Assembly: GCA_029776595.1 (NCBI GenBank)
Contig: JAKOSX010000119.1
Location: 1-38,694 of the forward strand
Source of the DNA: Bacillota bacterium
GTDB lineage: Bacteria > Bacillota > UBA4882 > UBA8346
DNA: 38,694 bases
Reading direction: 5' to 3'
Below, piece by piece: positions 17,078 through 25,154 of this stretch. A model generated the notes under the pieces. The model worked only from the letters and a program-made list of their open reading frames with translations. It was not told where the DNA came from and did no database searches. Both the position numbers and the translations under genes were made by a program. Every line of letters starts with the position of its first letter. Position 1 is the stretch's first letter.

Positions 17078-17149
17078 ATCTATTGTTCATAAATTGGGGG
17101 TGTGCCAAACAAAGTCTCCAACCGATATATAAAAGAAGGAGGATTAACG

Positions 17150-19687
17150 ATGACAACACACTGGATTACCGCAATTATCGACGGTGTTATTGTTATTTTT
17201 GCCGCATTTCTCATATTTATGGCTCTTCAATGGAAGAGACGTCACGCCGCCAAAAGCGCCCGGACCCATTCATTGCTGCATGCCAAACAGTTAATGGCCC
17301 AAGGCCGTTATGCCGAAGCACTGACCCAGCTTAACGCGCTGGCTTCGACCCTCGGCCGTCATCCGAAAAACGCCGTGGATATCCATTTGTGCCAGGGTAT
17401 TTGTTTAAGAGAAATCGGGATTTTTCAACGGGAGCCCGATTCGCTTCGCGCTGCCATTCCCCAGCTTGAAAAAGCATATAAACTGTGTGCCAACAAAAAA
17501 CCTATAGTCGCTGCCAAAGTTCTTTATGAGCTGAGCCGTTGTTATTTAGCATTGGCAGATTTTGAATCCAAAGAGATTTTTTTAGCCAAAGCCATTGCTG
17601 CTTCGAAAGAAGCCATTGCGCAGATATCTGCCAAAGCGGCTCCGACGCTCTGGGCACAGCTCCACCACCAACAAGGAATCTGTTGTTACCAGATCTCCCA
17701 TATCCGTCGGGACGAAGCATTGCCGTTTTTAACCAACTCCGTCGCTGCACTGCAGGAAGCCCTGAACCATTTCTCCGAAAAAAAACAGCCTTATGAGTGG
17801 GCATTGACGCAATTAGCGTTAAGCCATTCTTACCGGGATCTGGCCAATTATGAAAATGCCCAGGCCAATTTGGACGCTTCTGTGGAAGCGGCAACCCGGG
17901 CGGCAGGCTTTTTTACTTATAAATCCTATCCTTCTTCCTATGCTGCGGTTCAATTGAGTTTAGGCGATACATACCTGGCCCTTTTCAAAAATGAAGCCGG
18001 AGGCCGTTATCTGTCCAGGGCATTCCGCGCTTTCAAACGGACGTTGAAAGTCTACCATCCTGAACTGAATCCTTTGGAATACGCCCGCGTCTATCAGCGG
18101 CTTCAAATTCTCTTTGAATTGGCCGCCAAGGCGACGAATAAATCCAAATATCTGCGGCGTTCGCTCGATTCAGCCGACATCGCCCTTTCCGTCTTTACTT
18201 TAAAACGTTACCCCCATAATTACGCTTCCATTTATTTTCACAAAGGCATCTGCTTTAATGAACTGGCCAACCATACGGATACGGAGCAAAACTTAACCTC
18301 CGCTTTGTCGGCTTTGAACGAGACCACCAAAGTCTATTTTGGCAGAACCCATCATGAGATATACCTGGACACATTGTGGCTGCGCAGCCAAATCCTTTAC
18401 CGGCTGGCAGACTTGAAACAATCCCATGAGTTACTGTCCCAGGCCCTGGTCTGCCTCAAACCCCTTCTTCAAAACGAATTTTCCAAAAAAAATCCCCAAG
18501 TTTATCTGCTGGCAGGCGATATTTATCAAAAACTGGCAGACTGGCAACACTCCCAGGAACACCTGGAGGAAGCCATTGACGTTTACGAGGTCGGCCTGGC
18601 CCATTTCCCGGCCGTCTCCGTTCCGGAAGAACACGCCAACATCCAATGCCAATTAGGAAAATGCCGGTTGACTCTGGGAATCCTGACCGGACAAGCCGAA
18701 CTCTTTCTGCAAAGCGTCCGTTCCTTGGAGACTGCCAAAGCGTTATTTGAAGCTGAATCAAAAGACGACAGATTACAGGAAACCATGAGCATTTTGGGAC
18801 AAGCTTACTATCAGTTGGCATCTGTTGAAAATAAACAGGCAAACTTGGAAAAAGCCCTTTCCTGCTACCAACATTCCCTGCAATTATGCCAAAACCAAAA
18901 GCCGGAAATATTAATTCCGCTGTATCGGAACCAAGGCCTCATCCTGAAATCGCTGAGCCGGTATAAATCAAAGCAGGCATACCTTGAGCAGGCCATCCAG
19001 GCCTTTCAAAAAGCTCTCAAGCTCTACCCGGAAGAAAACTCCTCTCCGGAACATGGCTTGCTCCTGATGCATTTGGGCGAGACCTATCTCGAACTGGCCG
19101 ATGTTACCGAGAAAGAATATAATTTAAGCCGGGCCAAGAATTATTTTGAAAAAGCCGTCGACAATCTGGATTCTAAGGAACATCCTCTCGATTATGCCCG
19201 GACCCAAAACCTGATTGGAAATACCCTTTTGGAACTGGCTGACTTCGGTAACAGCGCAATCCTGTTGAATGAAGCCATTCATGCATTCAATACGGCATTG
19301 GGTATTTATTCCCCTAAAAACGCTCCGGAGAATTATGCCGATACCCTCAACGCCCTTGGCGTGGCCTATCAAAACCTGGCGGAAGCGTCTCCCAAAAATC
19401 GGGAGATCAATCTTCTCAACGCCATCCAGTCGCTCAAGGAAGCCCTCCGGATTTATACCCTCCGGGACTATCCTTCCGAATATGCCATGGTCCAAAATAA
19501 TCTGGGTTCCGCCTACAGTTTGTTGGCAGAAACTCAACACCGGGACCAAAACCTGAAACTGGCGCTTAAGGCCTTTGAAGAGGCCGCCCGCATTTACACC
19601 CCGAAGGATTATCCGGACAATGCCCGCAAAGTCCGGATGAACATCGAAAAAATCCGAGGCCGCTTCCGCCTGCAGGTTAAATCATAA
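17150..19687 (+). CDS. large TPR-repeat protein with N-terminal membrane anchor
   Basis: TM segment WITAIIDGVIVIFAAFLIFMALQW, then many degenerate repeats around P..YA..Q..LG..Y..LA......L..AL.AF..AL.IY. AAGGAGG SD before ATG 17150. Confidence 0.9.
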   Translation: MTTHWITAIIDGVIVIFAAFLIFMALQWKRRHAAKSARTHSLLHAKQLMAQGRYAEALTQLNALASTLGRHPKNAVDIHLCQGICLREIGIFQREPDSLRAAIPQLEKAYKLCANKKPIVAAKVLYELSRCYLALADFESKEIFLAKAIAASKEAIAQISAKAAPTLWAQLHHQQGICCYQISHIRRDEALPFLTNSVAALQEALNHFSEKKQPYEWALTQLALSHSYRDLANYENAQANLDASVEAATRAAGFFTYKSYPSSYAAVQLSLGDTYLALFKNEAGGRYLSRAFRAFKRTLKVYHPELNPLEYARVYQRLQILFELAAKATNKSKYLRRSLDSADIALSVFTLKRYPHNYASIYFHKGICFNELANHTDTEQNLTSALSALNETTKVYFGRTHHEIYLDTLWLRSQILYRLADLKQSHELLSQALVCLKPLLQNEFSKKNPQVYLLAGDIYQKLADWQHSQEHLEEAIDVYEVGLAHFPAVSVPEEHANIQCQLGKCRLTLGILTGQAELFLQSVRSLETAKALFEAESKDDRLQETMSILGQAYYQLASVENKQANLEKALSCYQHSLQLCQNQKPEILIPLYRNQGLILKSLSRYKSKQAYLEQAIQAFQKALKLYPEENSSPEHGLLLMHLGETYLELADVTEKEYNLSRAKNYFEKAVDNLDSKEHPLDYARTQNLIGNTLLELADFGNSAILLNEAIHAFNTALGIYSPKNAPENYADTLNALGVAYQNLAEASPKNREINLLNAIQSLKEALRIYTLRDYPSEYAMVQNNLGSAYSLLAETQHRDQNLKLALKAFEEAARIYTPKDYPDNARKVRMNIEKIRGRFRLQVKS

Positions 19688-19708: not shown

Positions 19709-21034
19709 CTATCTTTCAACCAAGGAGAGCAGGGCTTTAAAAATTTCTCCCTGTTTCGGAAAGAACGGGTGCTTCTTACTGGCCGTATCCAATAACGATC
19801 GGATGAATGGATTGTTGAGCGAACGAAGCAGGTTTTGATTCCGTTCTTTTTGCCGCTCCAGCTTTTCACATAGCTGATCGACAGCCAGAAGTCCCGCGCC
19901 CTGCAATAAAACTCCTAATCCCATATCCCGTGCGGAAACTTTAAGCAACCGTTTCAGACGGTTCGGTGTCAGATCAGGCCATTTTTGTAGGACTTGAGCA
20001 ATCCCGCCGCTGACCATCGGAGTCGCCATGGACGTCCCGGTTAAAGCTACATAACCGTTTTTCGTGTCCAATGACGTGATATTGGTTCCCGGCGCCACCA
20101 CGTCCGGCTTCTCGAAAAAGTCGATGGTCGGGCCCCGGCTGGACGAATCATGCAGCCGGTCATCGTCAAAACTCAGGGTTTCCTGATCATTAAAATTTCC
20201 CACCGTAATGATTCGGGGATTGATGCCAGGTGAATTGATGGTTCCCAGAGCCGGGCCGTCGTTTCCTGCAGCGGCACAGACAACGATCCCAGCTTCCCAA
20301 GCTGCAGTCGTTGCCCGGCACAACGGATCCGTCCTGTACGATTCCTGGGCTTCGGCTCCCAGCGACAGATTGATCACTTTAATCGGCAATGCCGAACGAT
20401 GGTGGATACACCATTCGATGCCGGCAATAACATCGGAGATACTACCGCCGCCGTCCCGATCCAGTACCTTCACCCCTACCAGGCGCGCTTCCGGCGCCAT
20501 ACCGCTGTACATGCCGTCGGATCGGGTTCCGTTTCCGGCAATAATCCCCGCCACGTGCGTGCCATGACCGTTGTCGTCATAGGGTTCATTCTTCTTTTGG
20601 ACCAGATCATGCCAGGCTAAAATCCGATTGGTGGGAAGCGTCAAATCATCATGGGGATATATGCCGGTATCCAATACGGCAACCACAACGCCTTTTCCGG
20701 TTAATCCCTCTCTCCGGACGGCCTCGGAACCGGTGACGGCCGTTGCCACATCCAGCGTGGCCCGGACCGGAACATTGCTCCAAATTTTACGTACCCGTTG
20801 GGAACGGGCCAACTCCTCCACGGCCTCCTCCGGACATTCCACCACCAAGGCGCGAAGCATTCCCAGTTCACCGCAGACTCTGCCCTGATTCGACTCAACC
20901 AGGGCCATGATCGCATCCTGACGCCGGCTCATCAATTCAATGATCAGGCTGACTTTTTTTGGGACTTGGGCGCCGATTTCCCGTTGTTTTCGCAACACCG
21001 GAGAAAGTTTATACATCCATTGATTGGCCAACAT
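19709..21034 (-). CDS. S8 family peptidase (AprX-like subtilase), catalytically complete
   Basis: VVAVLDTGI (Asp), NGHGTHVAG (His), AAAGNDGP (Asn), GTSMATP (Ser); N-terminal prodomain; no signal peptide. AAGGAGTGA SD supports a start at 21034. Confidence 0.94.
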   Translation of the reverse strand: MLANQWMYKLSPVLRKQREIGAQVPKKVSLIIELMSRRQDAIMALVESNQGRVCGELGMLRALVVECPEEAVEELARSQRVRKIWSNVPVRATLDVATAVTGSEAVRREGLTGKGVVVAVLDTGIYPHDDLTLPTNRILAWHDLVQKKNEPYDDNGHGTHVAGIIAGNGTRSDGMYSGMAPEARLVGVKVLDRDGGGSISDVIAGIEWCIHHRSALPIKVINLSLGAEAQESYRTDPLCRATTAAWEAGIVVCAAAGNDGPALGTINSPGINPRIITVGNFNDQETLSFDDDRLHDSSSRGPTIDFFEKPDVVAPGTNITSLDTKNGYVALTGTSMATPMVSGGIAQVLQKWPDLTPNRLKRLLKVSARDMGLGVLLQGAGLLAVDQLCEKLERQKERNQNLLRSLNNPFIRSLLDTASKKHPFFPKQGEIFKALLSLVER

Positions 21035-21141: not shown

Positions 21142-22605
21142 TTATTCCGATGCAGGTTCTGGAGAAATTAAAGCCCGAATCAGTTTGGTACCCATCTCCT
21201 GTAATTCCGAATTCAACCCGCCGCCGGCCGCCCGTATTCCGGACACAACGGCTTCCCATAATCTTTCCGGATTCAGGTTTTTATCCGCCGAAGACATACC
21301 TTCAGCGTCTGATTCGGTTTTCTCTATCGTTTCTTGAAGCAATGTCAAGCCGGTCCGAATCAGTTCCGGAATCATACTGTTTCGAAGCATATTTTCCATA
21401 GCTTCATTGAGCTTCAACGCTTTCATCAGAGCAATTCCCAGCTTAAACCATTCATTGACTTGCGGATTTTGATAAAATTCCATCCGTCTCAGCAATTTAT
21501 CCAGATCAATTTGGCTCAGATACGTGATAACCTGATCGATAATAGCCTGCATCTGTTTGCGGACTAACTCGCTCAATTCGGATTCCGGAGATTTTCTCCC
21601 ATCAACCTTGGATGCATTTTTCACCCAAAGCCGCTTAGCAATCGCCCTCTTCAGCCATTCGGACGACGCAAAGGGCTGCTCTTCCAAAATACACGCGGCT
21701 ATACCGCTGAGATAGCCCACGGCTGCACCGATTTCCGCTGTCTTTCCGTCAAAGAAAGGATGATCCGGAGCCACAATCCGCCCGGCCCCTCGCTCCACCG
21801 GCCATTCACTGTCCACGACGACCAACAGACGGCGGTGCATTCCCGGCGACACTGCCATCGACCGGTCATGTTCACCGGATTCCAAACCGGTACAGACTAA
21901 AATCCCATTTTTAGCAACACGGGCCAATGCCCTGCATAGCAGATCCCGTTCATCATCGCCTTGCGCTAATGTCTTTAGCGGAACAGCCATCACTTGAACA
22001 GGATCCGATTGGCTCCCGAGACACCATTCGATGCCCAGCAGCACATCGGCCAAAGTCCCGGTAGCTTTACGGTTAAGCACTTTGACTCCAATCAACCGGG
22101 CATCCGGTGCTTGTTCGGCAATAATCCGCGCCAAATAGGTTCCATGACCATGCTCATCATACGGGACGCTCCGGCCGTTTATCATATCCGCCCAGCCTAT
22201 CAATGATTTATCCCAACGGCCGAAACCGGGCCACTGCCGGATTCCGGTGTCCAGCAAAGCAACAGTCACTCCCTTACCGGTGGCTTTCTCCCGCCGCAGC
22301 CAAGGAACGGCCATCCGGTTTACGGTGGAAGCCAACGGTTCTACCGCTGTATTGCTCCAAACCCGCCGTACCGAAGGCAACCGGGCCAACTCGGAAACCG
22401 CCGATAGTGGCACGTCAATCTCCATGGCAGGTATCAGCTTTATTTCCCGGAATACCGTTCCCTGTTGGGACTCAACAAACCCGGCGACTTTATCCCAGGC
22501 ATTTCCGAAAAGCTCCACTATCAGACTGTACCGCTCTTCCGAACGGCCGTCCATATTCCTTAACAGCGGAGACAGTTTAAGATCAGACCACAATCCACCA
22601 GCCAT
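21142..22605 (-). CDS. S8-like pseudoprotease (catalytic Ser and oxyanion Asn absent) with C-terminal extension
   Basis: Prodomain plus VALLDTGI and HGHGTYLA are retained. The GTSMATPMVSG-equivalent reads EIGAAVGYLSG; the AAAGNDG-equivalent reads TGLESGE. Confidence 0.85.
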   Translation of the reverse strand: MAGGLWSDLKLSPLLRNMDGRSEERYSLIVELFGNAWDKVAGFVESQQGTVFREIKLIPAMEIDVPLSAVSELARLPSVRRVWSNTAVEPLASTVNRMAVPWLRREKATGKGVTVALLDTGIRQWPGFGRWDKSLIGWADMINGRSVPYDEHGHGTYLARIIAEQAPDARLIGVKVLNRKATGTLADVLLGIEWCLGSQSDPVQVMAVPLKTLAQGDDERDLLCRALARVAKNGILVCTGLESGEHDRSMAVSPGMHRRLLVVVDSEWPVERGAGRIVAPDHPFFDGKTAEIGAAVGYLSGIAACILEEQPFASSEWLKRAIAKRLWVKNASKVDGRKSPESELSELVRKQMQAIIDQVITYLSQIDLDKLLRRMEFYQNPQVNEWFKLGIALMKALKLNEAMENMLRNSMIPELIRTGLTLLQETIEKTESDAEGMSSADKNLNPERLWEAVVSGIRAAGGGLNSELQEMGTKLIRALISPEPASE

Positions 22606-22621
22606 CAAAAATCCCCCACTC

Positions 22622-22897
22622 TCACTCTTTTTCGCAAAGGGCTACTTTCAGATCGGCATTGATCATCCGGACCTGCTTCATTTGTGCCAATTCTTCGATA
22701 ACTGGGGGGTCCACTTCCACCACCAACGAATGTACGCAGTTTAATCGATGGCACACCTTCCCGTTTCTGGCCTTCACCAAAGCAATCACCGGTTCAAAGT
22801 CGTCCTGGCCCACTTCGACAATGACCCGGCGCGTTCCTGACGCAGTCGCTAAACGCTCAGCTTTTAACGATGTCGCGATTTTTTTGGCCCAATCCAT
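22622..22897 (-). CDS. stand-alone S8 prodomain (inhibitor I9-like) protein
   Basis: 91 aa: RVIVEVGQDDFEPVIALVKARNGKVCHRLNCVHSLVVEVDPPVIEELAQMKQVRMINADLKVAL aligns with the N-terminal prodomains of the neighbouring S8 proteins. AAAGGAGGTGG SD. Confidence 0.82.
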   Translation of the reverse strand: MDWAKKIATSLKAERLATASGTRRVIVEVGQDDFEPVIALVKARNGKVCHRLNCVHSLVVEVDPPVIEELAQMKQVRMINADLKVALCEKE

Positions 22898-23045
22898 TCG
22901 GTCCACCTCCTTTGCGGAGCATGTCATCGACTTTATAAAACTTCAAAAAATCTGCCGTGATATATTATAGTTACAAATTTCCTAAATTGTTTCGTTACCA
23001 AAAGCATTTCATCAACGTATCGGATTGGGCTTCAAACCTATAAAC

Positions 23046-23071
23046 GGAAAAGCCCGTTTCCGGGCTTTTCC
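23046..23071 (-). terminator. hairpin terminator after micropeptide 1
   Basis: GGAAAAGCCCGTTTCCGGGCTTTTCC. Confidence 0.65.
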
Positions 23072-23110
23072 GCATCATGATGAATGGCTATTTGGACCAG
23101 AGATTAACGC

Positions 23111-23887: not shown

Positions 23888-25154
23888 TTATGCAAATGCC
23901 GGTTGCTTGGCAAAAAAGGGCCGGAATAAAGGAATACGGCGTAAGATTTCGATGATCCATCCGATAAGCCCGCGGCTTTCTGACGTTTCATCCTCGAAGA
24001 CCTCCGCTACGCTTAAGGCGCCGGATCCTTCAATGTATGGACGCAGTCCCATGTCCCGGGCATTTTGTTTCAAAATCCGTTTCACCTGGTCCGGTTTTAA
24101 TCCCGGTCTGTGTTGCAGAATTTGAGCCGCTGCCCCGGCAACCATCGGGGCGGCCATGGATGTTCCGGTCATGGTCTGATATCCCCCCACCGGGTTTTAA
24201 CGAAACGATATTGGTCCCCGGTGCCAATAAGTCCGGCTTAACCTGGTCGTCAATGGTCGGACCCACGCTGGAAGACTCATTGACAATATCATCCGAAGGA
24301 TCAACGGTGCCCCGATCATCCAGATTTCCGACAGTGATAGCTTTCGGTTCAATGCCCGGCGTGTTGATGGTCCGGGCTCCCGGACCGTCATTCCCGGCAG
24401 CCACACAAACGACTAACCCATTATCCCAAGCACTGCGCACGGCAGCACACAAAGGGTCACTCACGGAGGACTGATAAGCCGGAGCTCCCAACGACAAGTT
24501 GAGCACCCGGATATTGTAGACCGCTTGCTTCTCAAGGCACCATTCGATGGCCACCAAAATGTCGGAAATATTGCCGGTCCCCTCTTTATCCAAGGCTTTA
24601 ATGCCGACTAGATTGGCTTCAGGAGCTACACCCGTATATTTGCCTCGGGAAGACCAACCGTTTCCGGCTACAATCCCAGCCACATGAGTCCCATGGCCGT
24701 TGTCGTCATAGGGCGAGCTTTTGCCGTTCACCAGATCGTACCACCCGATTATCCTGTTTTCTGGCGATGTCAAATCAGGATGAGGTGCAATACCGGTATC
24801 GATAATGGCAACTGTCACACCTTTACCGGTATAGCCTAGGCCCTGTCCGACTTTGCTGCCGATGGTGGGAACGGCGATATCCAATAAAGCTTTCACTTTT
24901 GTATCATGCCAGATTCTCCGGACATAAGGTGCCATGGCCAGCGGCTGCAGCGCGCCGTAAGGCATCTCGATGATCGTCCATGGAAACCGGTTAAACTGGC
25001 GACGAATCACTCCGGAATTGGCTTTGACATAAGGTCCGACTCTCCGGATTTCCGGAGTGACCATCTCCACGATAAACCGGACCGGACGTTCCGGATGTTC
25101 GACGAACTCGGAATTCAACAATTCCGGGGATAACTTTTGTATCCATGATTTCAT
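23888..25154 (-). pseudogene. S8 family peptidase (AprX-like), reading frame interrupted at a G6 tract
   Basis: Frame 1 (25154..~24190) carries the Asp, His and Asn blocks. The Ser block GTSMAAPMVAG is in another frame (24190..23888). Removing one base from the C6/G6 run at 24183-24188 gives SLKPGGGYQTMTGTSMAAP. Confidence 0.8.

Follow-up and report, generated by a model that had tools for sequence, protein, structure and literature searches.

The window analysed here is a contig of 38,694 nucleotides from a Bacillota bacterium (JAKOSX010000119.1, assembly GCA_029776595.1), and among its genes for S8 (subtilisin-family) proteins lies a short open reading frame whose product aligns with the prodomains of the flanking S8 proteins and stops before any protease domain. 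The original prediction was that this product is a prodomain made on its own, acting in trans as an inhibitor or a chaperone. Two questions follow, namely whether the frame is a gene in its own right or the cut-off front of a longer one, and what a free prodomain would do beside proteases that already carry one.

The prodomain is encoded by a separate gene

The product contains neither a signal peptide nor a protease domain, and the description of a separate frame of about 91 codons with its own strong Shine-Dalgarno sequence, some 16 bp before the pseudoprotease start, is confirmed from the sequence (Table 1). The frame as far as position 22605 was rechecked for a sequencing artefact, and none is apparent: the pseudoprotease ATG at 22605 lies 16 bp past the stop codon in a different frame and opens a protein with a complete prodomain of its own, and the congener (G001, an independent assembly and the nearest relative of the window's genome, G000) has the same two genes with the same stop, 16 bp spacing and frame change. 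Because the next gene has a full prodomain and the independent assembly agrees, the stop is taken to be real, and a frame error or a cut-off S8 domain is ruled out as far as sequence can do so.

Upstream of the gene there is a probable intrinsic terminator, which is not among the features listed by the sequence scan that also covered promoters, and a block containing a TATAAT-like sequence that pairwise alignment shows to be almost identical in G000 and G001 and that is the probable promoter. Given the terminator and this conserved block, the stand-alone gene is probably the first of its transcript, which probably continues into the pseudoprotease gene and perhaps into that of the active S8 protease. 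A scan for sigma factor classes gave only consensus-like matches, at about twice the number found in shuffled sequence and none of them decisive.

Table 1. Features of the S8 locus in the window
Feature	Position	Strand	Remarks
Intact S8 protease with prodomain	19709..21034	-	D, H, oxyanion N and S all present; no signal peptide; Shine-Dalgarno-supported start at 21034
S8 pseudoprotease with its own prodomain, 487 aa	21142..22605	-	Retains Asp and His; lacks the catalytic Ser segment and the oxyanion Asn
Stand-alone S8 prodomain gene	22622..22897	-	91 aa, 10.1 kDa; ATG at 22897, TGA ends at 22622
C-terminal tail, D82-L-K-V-A-L-C88-E-K-E	22625..22654	-	From profile and alignment coordinates
Shine-Dalgarno sequence of the stand-alone gene, AAAGGAGG	22906..22913	-	Strong; conserved in congener G001
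Probable promoter element with TATAAT-like sequence	22956..23000	-	Block almost identical in G000 and G001
Probable intrinsic terminator after the preceding small gene	23043..23072	-	GC-rich inverted repeat, then T; conserved in congener
Tiny hydrophobic peptide gene, 33 aa	23114..23212	-	Shine-Dalgarno sequence; conserved in congener
Tiny hydrophobic peptide gene, 34 aa	23379..23480	-	
Tiny hydrophobic peptide gene, 35 aa	23675..23779	-	Copies near S8 genes in another genus reach 89% identity
Second S8 protease (S8b) with prodomain	23888..25154	-	Split over two frames in the window; intact, 440 aa, in congener

Homology and predicted fold

The proposed alignment with the prodomains of the neighbouring S8 proteins is borne out by BLASTP, in which the stand-alone protein matches the intact S8 protease best (E 1e-10; 85 aa aligned at 32% identity), followed at lower but still clear significance by the pseudoprotease (E 1e-5) and the third S8 protein (E 3e-5), in each case through the prodomain; judged by these values, the similarity to all three exceeds chance. 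Comparison with Inhibitor_I9, suggested at the outset, came out in two parts. The Pfam model (PF05922) did not match the stand-alone protein in hmmscan up to an E value of 10 and found nothing in a search of the window's whole genome, and all other Pfam and NCBIfam models likewise left the protein unmatched, whereas a profile made from an alignment of 26 family prodomains (profile A3) matched solved subtilisin propeptides in the PDB, best that of Tk-subtilisin (E 3.8e-6), with weak matches to the propeptides of subtilisin E (0.0095) and BPN' (0.041).

The AF2 model of the protein has a pLDDT of 85, and its top Foldseek match in the PDB is the subtilisin propeptide 2z58_B (E 2.5e-4, TM 0.81 by target), with a second subtilisin propeptide, 1scj_B, at TM 0.76 and, lower down the list, the prodomain of CspB and the stand-alone inhibitor POIA1. 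The predicted structure is that of a propeptide, as the original prediction held, though the C-terminal tail is modelled with low confidence (pLDDT 49-70). The I9-type fold is visible only by profile search and in the predicted structure, and the protein fits MEROPS I9 and Pfam Inhibitor_I9 by fold and by propeptide homology, not by the curated family model.

The chain ends at or just after the expected cleavage point

The last residue of a subtilase propeptide is the P1 residue of the autoprocessing site, which leaves the propeptide with a product-like tail (PMC10580911). The profile places a conserved Asp (position 86) that corresponds to the helix-capping Asp71 of BPN' (for the capping role, PMC6993865), and in three solved propeptides, 2z58_B, 1scj_B and 1spb_P, the chain ends six residues past this Asp. 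By alignment, the equivalents in the stand-alone protein of the window are D82 for the capping residue, V85 for P4 and C88 for P1.

Stand-alone prodomains from two other genera of the same family (G008 and G005, see below) end exactly at Asp+6, with the tails IKIV and IKIC, and those of the window and the congener end at Asp+9, three residues past the P1 equivalent (VALC followed by EKE, VAHC followed by KEE). All four have Val or Ile at P4, which is also the rule, with few exceptions, among the linked prodomains. The P2 Ile of the G008 and G005 proteins agrees with that of the neighbouring active S8 protease (VRIR and VFIR), most other S8 proteins having Ala or Thr there, an agreement that is suggestive only, and the window and congener proteins lack a Trp that is common in the family. 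With the autoprocessing sites of the S8 proteins placed by analogy, the pattern at the C-terminus fits a protein shaped like a cleaved propeptide.

Selection, orthology and distribution

The congener protein is 87% identical to that of the window, and over the 91 codons dN is 0.075 and dS 0.93, giving a dN/dS of 0.08, close to the 0.05 of the active S8 proteases in the same comparison, with the pseudoprotease at 0.24; these ratios indicate that the stand-alone gene is under purifying selection. The homologues in G008 and G005 have about 30% identity, and in a prodomain tree the four stand-alone proteins form one group with support of 93/88, which becomes 84/53 when the tail columns are omitted (80% of bootstrap trees), so that a single origin is likely on an alignment of about 90 columns. 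Its homology and predicted fold, its occurrence as a gene of its own in three genera and the purifying selection on it establish the protein as the stand-alone S8 prodomain that it was predicted to be.

The gene is present in 4 of 10 genomes of the family, always beside an intact S8 gene, and at least five genomes (G006, G007, G009, G002 and G004) seem to be without it despite having active S8 proteases; G003 was left out of the count, because both relevant contigs break off at the point where the gene order of G008, a genome of the same genus, would place the gene. Across 399 genomes of the phylum, Inhibitor_I9 gave 81 matches in 51 genomes, the shortest in an open frame of 253 aa and none of them a stand-alone prodomain, which points to the arrangement being rare. 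Outside the family, profile A3 found one further short frame, of 69 aa, in G407 (L050:2656-2865, -), which ends at the Asp+6 (P1) profile position like the G008 and G005 proteins and lies 6.4 kb from that genome's only S8 gene (L052:9243-10430, -, same contig), itself equipped with a prodomain. No stand-alone relatives of this frame were found in its own class, and the frame could have arisen independently or be no more than a chance fragment.

S8 neighbours and gene order

The order in G000 and G001 runs from S8b through three tiny peptide genes, the stand-alone prodomain and the pseudoprotease to the active S8 protease. In G008 and G005 a degenerate or atypical S8 comes first, then a tiny peptide gene, a 54-aa gene on the opposite strand, the stand-alone prodomain, a 51-aa gene and a convergent active S8 protease. 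For the intact S8 protease of the window a longer open frame is possible from 21127, and the split in the frame of S8b may reflect an assembly error or recent decay. The model of the pseudoprotease shows a prodomain and part of a subtilase fold, ending in a helical segment predicted with low confidence.

Degenerate S8 proteins are also present in G003, G006 and G008, and the equivalent protein of G005 keeps the triad but has altered motifs. Such proteins stand beside active S8 proteases in several genera (L032:1566-2945, L034:8764-10089, L035:272-1966 and 21142-22605 of the window) and have lost the Ser or the oxyanion Asn, differently in each, which suggests that a non-catalytic S8 protein is a regular member of the cluster. 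By inspection, none of these S8 proteins has a signal peptide; the proteases compared with the AprX type lack a hydrophobic N-terminus and measure 440-472 aa, where that type would have no signal peptide, about 440 aa and a place in the AprX clade of a subtilase tree (for the AprX grouping of intracellular subtilases, PMC9549277). The organism is probably a spore former, because Spo0A is present in the window's genome, and the setting of the S8 locus is probably intracellular and linked to sporulation.

Proposed function and alternatives

The reading we favour, at a probability of about 0.6, is that the stand-alone prodomain would be a trans-acting, product-like inhibitor of the active S8 protease or proteases of the same locus. 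From what is established (the gene, its homology, fold prediction, orthology, selection and S8 linkage, and the position of the C-terminus) we infer binding, inhibition, the S8 protein that is the target, and the timing. Like a cleaved propeptide, the prodomain would bind through its beta-sheet face to surface helices of the catalytic domain and place its tail, from the P4 Val/Ile to the P1 Cys/Val, in the substrate cleft. Because the inhibitor is made separately from the protease it could set a threshold, the protease staying inhibited after processing of its own prodomain and being released once the inhibitor was removed or outnumbered. Released propeptides do inhibit in trans (PMC10580911), and the active S8 proteases and the stand-alone protein alike lack a signal peptide. 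Against such a role stand the inhibitory prodomain that each S8 protein already has, the three extra residues past P1 and the missing Trp in the G000 and G001 copies, and the family genomes that have active S8 proteases and no such gene.

The other half of the original proposal, in which the stand-alone protein would template the folding of an S8 domain of the cluster in trans, has in its favour that mesophilic subtilases have propeptides that serve both as chaperones and as inhibitors (PMC10580911) and that the gene comes first in the probable operon of the window. On the other side, each S8 protein encoded there already comes with a linked prodomain, and in G005 and G008 the stand-alone gene lies downstream of the degenerate S8 gene and runs towards the active one, so that it would not always be made first. 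We consider a chaperone distinctly unlikely; inhibition is the better supported of the two, since the protein has retained the C-terminal tail, which finishes at P1 or shortly past it. The partner could instead be the degenerate S8 protein, which cannot process its own prodomain and which the stand-alone protein might bind as part of a sensor or scaffold. This is unlikely, although the two genes are 16 bp apart in G000 and G001 and the nearest upstream S8 on the same strand in G008 and G005 is also degenerate or atypical: the pseudoprotease retains its own prodomain, which should occupy the site, its dN/dS is about three times that of the stand-alone gene, and G006 has a degenerate S8 with no stand-alone prodomain.

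That the target might be a different S8 protease, elsewhere in the genome or extracellular, draws on the ability of propeptides to inhibit heterologous subtilases and on one more S8 in the congener, a 609 aa frame on a different contig, but in the window's genome (86% complete) no S8 genes were found outside this locus, and linkage to S8 genes is kept in three genera, which makes such a target improbable. We attach very little weight to the idea that the gene is a functionless leftover of a truncated S8 duplicate. The locus has gained S8 genes, some of which have decayed, and the stand-alone gene occurs in only part of the family, but a decaying fragment is contradicted by the dN/dS of 0.08 over 91 codons, and the gene has an intact frame, a strong Shine-Dalgarno sequence, a conserved upstream element and orthologues in three genera, with a shared gene order in two of them. 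Returning to inhibition of the active protease, a speculative extension that we rate as doubtful, on a par with the chaperone, is a three-part spore module in which the pseudoprotease, as a decoy or sensor, would remove the inhibitor on a signal and so release the protease; in this reading the pseudoprotease would offer the same docking surface as the active S8. Such a module, if real, would be a differently built counterpart of the CspB/CspA/CspC germination system.

Comparison with known systems

Stand-alone propeptide-like inhibitors are known as POIA1, yeast Pbi2 (proteinase B inhibitor 2), Arabidopsis SPI-1, Toxoplasma MIC5 and Plasmodium SUB1-ProM, all eukaryotic (PMC6993865). SUB1-ProM is encoded beside SUB1 and is a potent inhibitor of it (PMC6993865), and by analogy it is the nearest parallel, because it is encoded beside three subtilase genes. 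Both are products of a small separate gene, with a propeptide fold, a conserved position beside subtilase genes and the acidic helix-capping position kept; SUB1-ProM differs in being eukaryotic and secreted and in having had its inhibition measured, whereas the bacterial protein is intracellular as judged by its sequence, has no signal peptide and ends at or near P1. POIA1, Pbi2, SPI-1 and MIC5 (MEROPS I9 members or propeptide mimics) likewise have a propeptide fold and no protease domain, and for POIA1 and the yeast inhibitor the C-terminal residues matter (PMC10580911). As with POIA1, Pbi2, SPI-1 and SUB1-ProM, the gene is separate, here with stop and frame conserved in the congener and a stand-alone form in three genera. 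Unlike the eukaryotic I9 inhibitors, which have no significant sequence similarity to propeptides, the bacterial protein is a recognisable paralogue of linked prodomains. The propeptides of Tk-subtilisin, subtilisin E and BPN' are its closest solved structures by profile and fold, with the same Asp at the same distance from the C-terminal residue, but they are parts of a precursor released by autoprocessing and have no gene of their own.

The Csp proteins (CspB, CspA and CspC; PMC6636752) are also an S8 cluster of spore formers that mixes active and Ser-less members, and the prodomain of CspB stays bound and blocks the site (PMC6636752). The pseudoprotease of the window has, in the manner of the C. 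difficile type, lost catalytic residues. The locus nevertheless has no CspBA-type fusion and no jelly-roll insertion (about 130 aa), the intact S8 protease matching positions 1-277 of PF00082 over 260 residues in one stretch, and the lack of the insertion rules out membership of the Csp family. To our knowledge, no stand-alone prodomain is known in Csp systems. Bacillus subtilis IPI (PMC3901451) is a separate bacterial protein reported to inhibit the intracellular subtilisin Isp1, but it has an Ig-like fold unrelated to propeptides.

We found no characterised bacterial stand-alone S8 prodomain in the open-access literature, the coverage of which is incomplete. The inhibitors of this kind characterised so far come from fungi, plants and apicomplexans, and convergent evolution has been put forward for them; the bacterial protein, which is recognisably kin to its neighbours' prodomains, is maintained by selection and terminates at the natural cleavage site or close to it, would be a clean case of a protease's own folding aid turned into a free regulator. 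Should it act in sporulation or germination, it would point to a circuit of protease, inhibitor and pseudoprotease in a poorly studied lineage of spore formers.

Small genes and other neighbours of the S8 genes

The tiny peptides (33-39 aa) interleaved with the S8 genes follow the pattern MAD..KGLFDG..NNGWLMFLIFVLLVIGCGG, and most have a Shine-Dalgarno sequence. Homologues occur in L031, L032, L033, L034 and L035 and are up to 89% identical between genera; searches against Pfam and NCBIfam gave nothing above the cut-offs, and a resemblance to small sporulation peptides is an impression only. The 54-aa and 51-aa families that flank the stand-alone gene in two genera (L032:3263-3424, -, and L032:4453-4605, +; L033:8338-8499, +, and L033:7608-7760, -) carry no family name and recur near S8 genes in L034, L035 and L039. 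A short NlpC/P60 protein, absent from the window, is frequent near the S8 genes of relatives (L034:2760-3167, L035:4347-4757, L037:284-694, L039:4217-4633 and L043:2037-2456), and a large protein of TPR-like appearance lies beside S8 genes in several genera, at 17102-19687 (+) in the window, where it has 861 aa, and at L031:2440-4977, L036:1638-4229 and L038:2792-5383.
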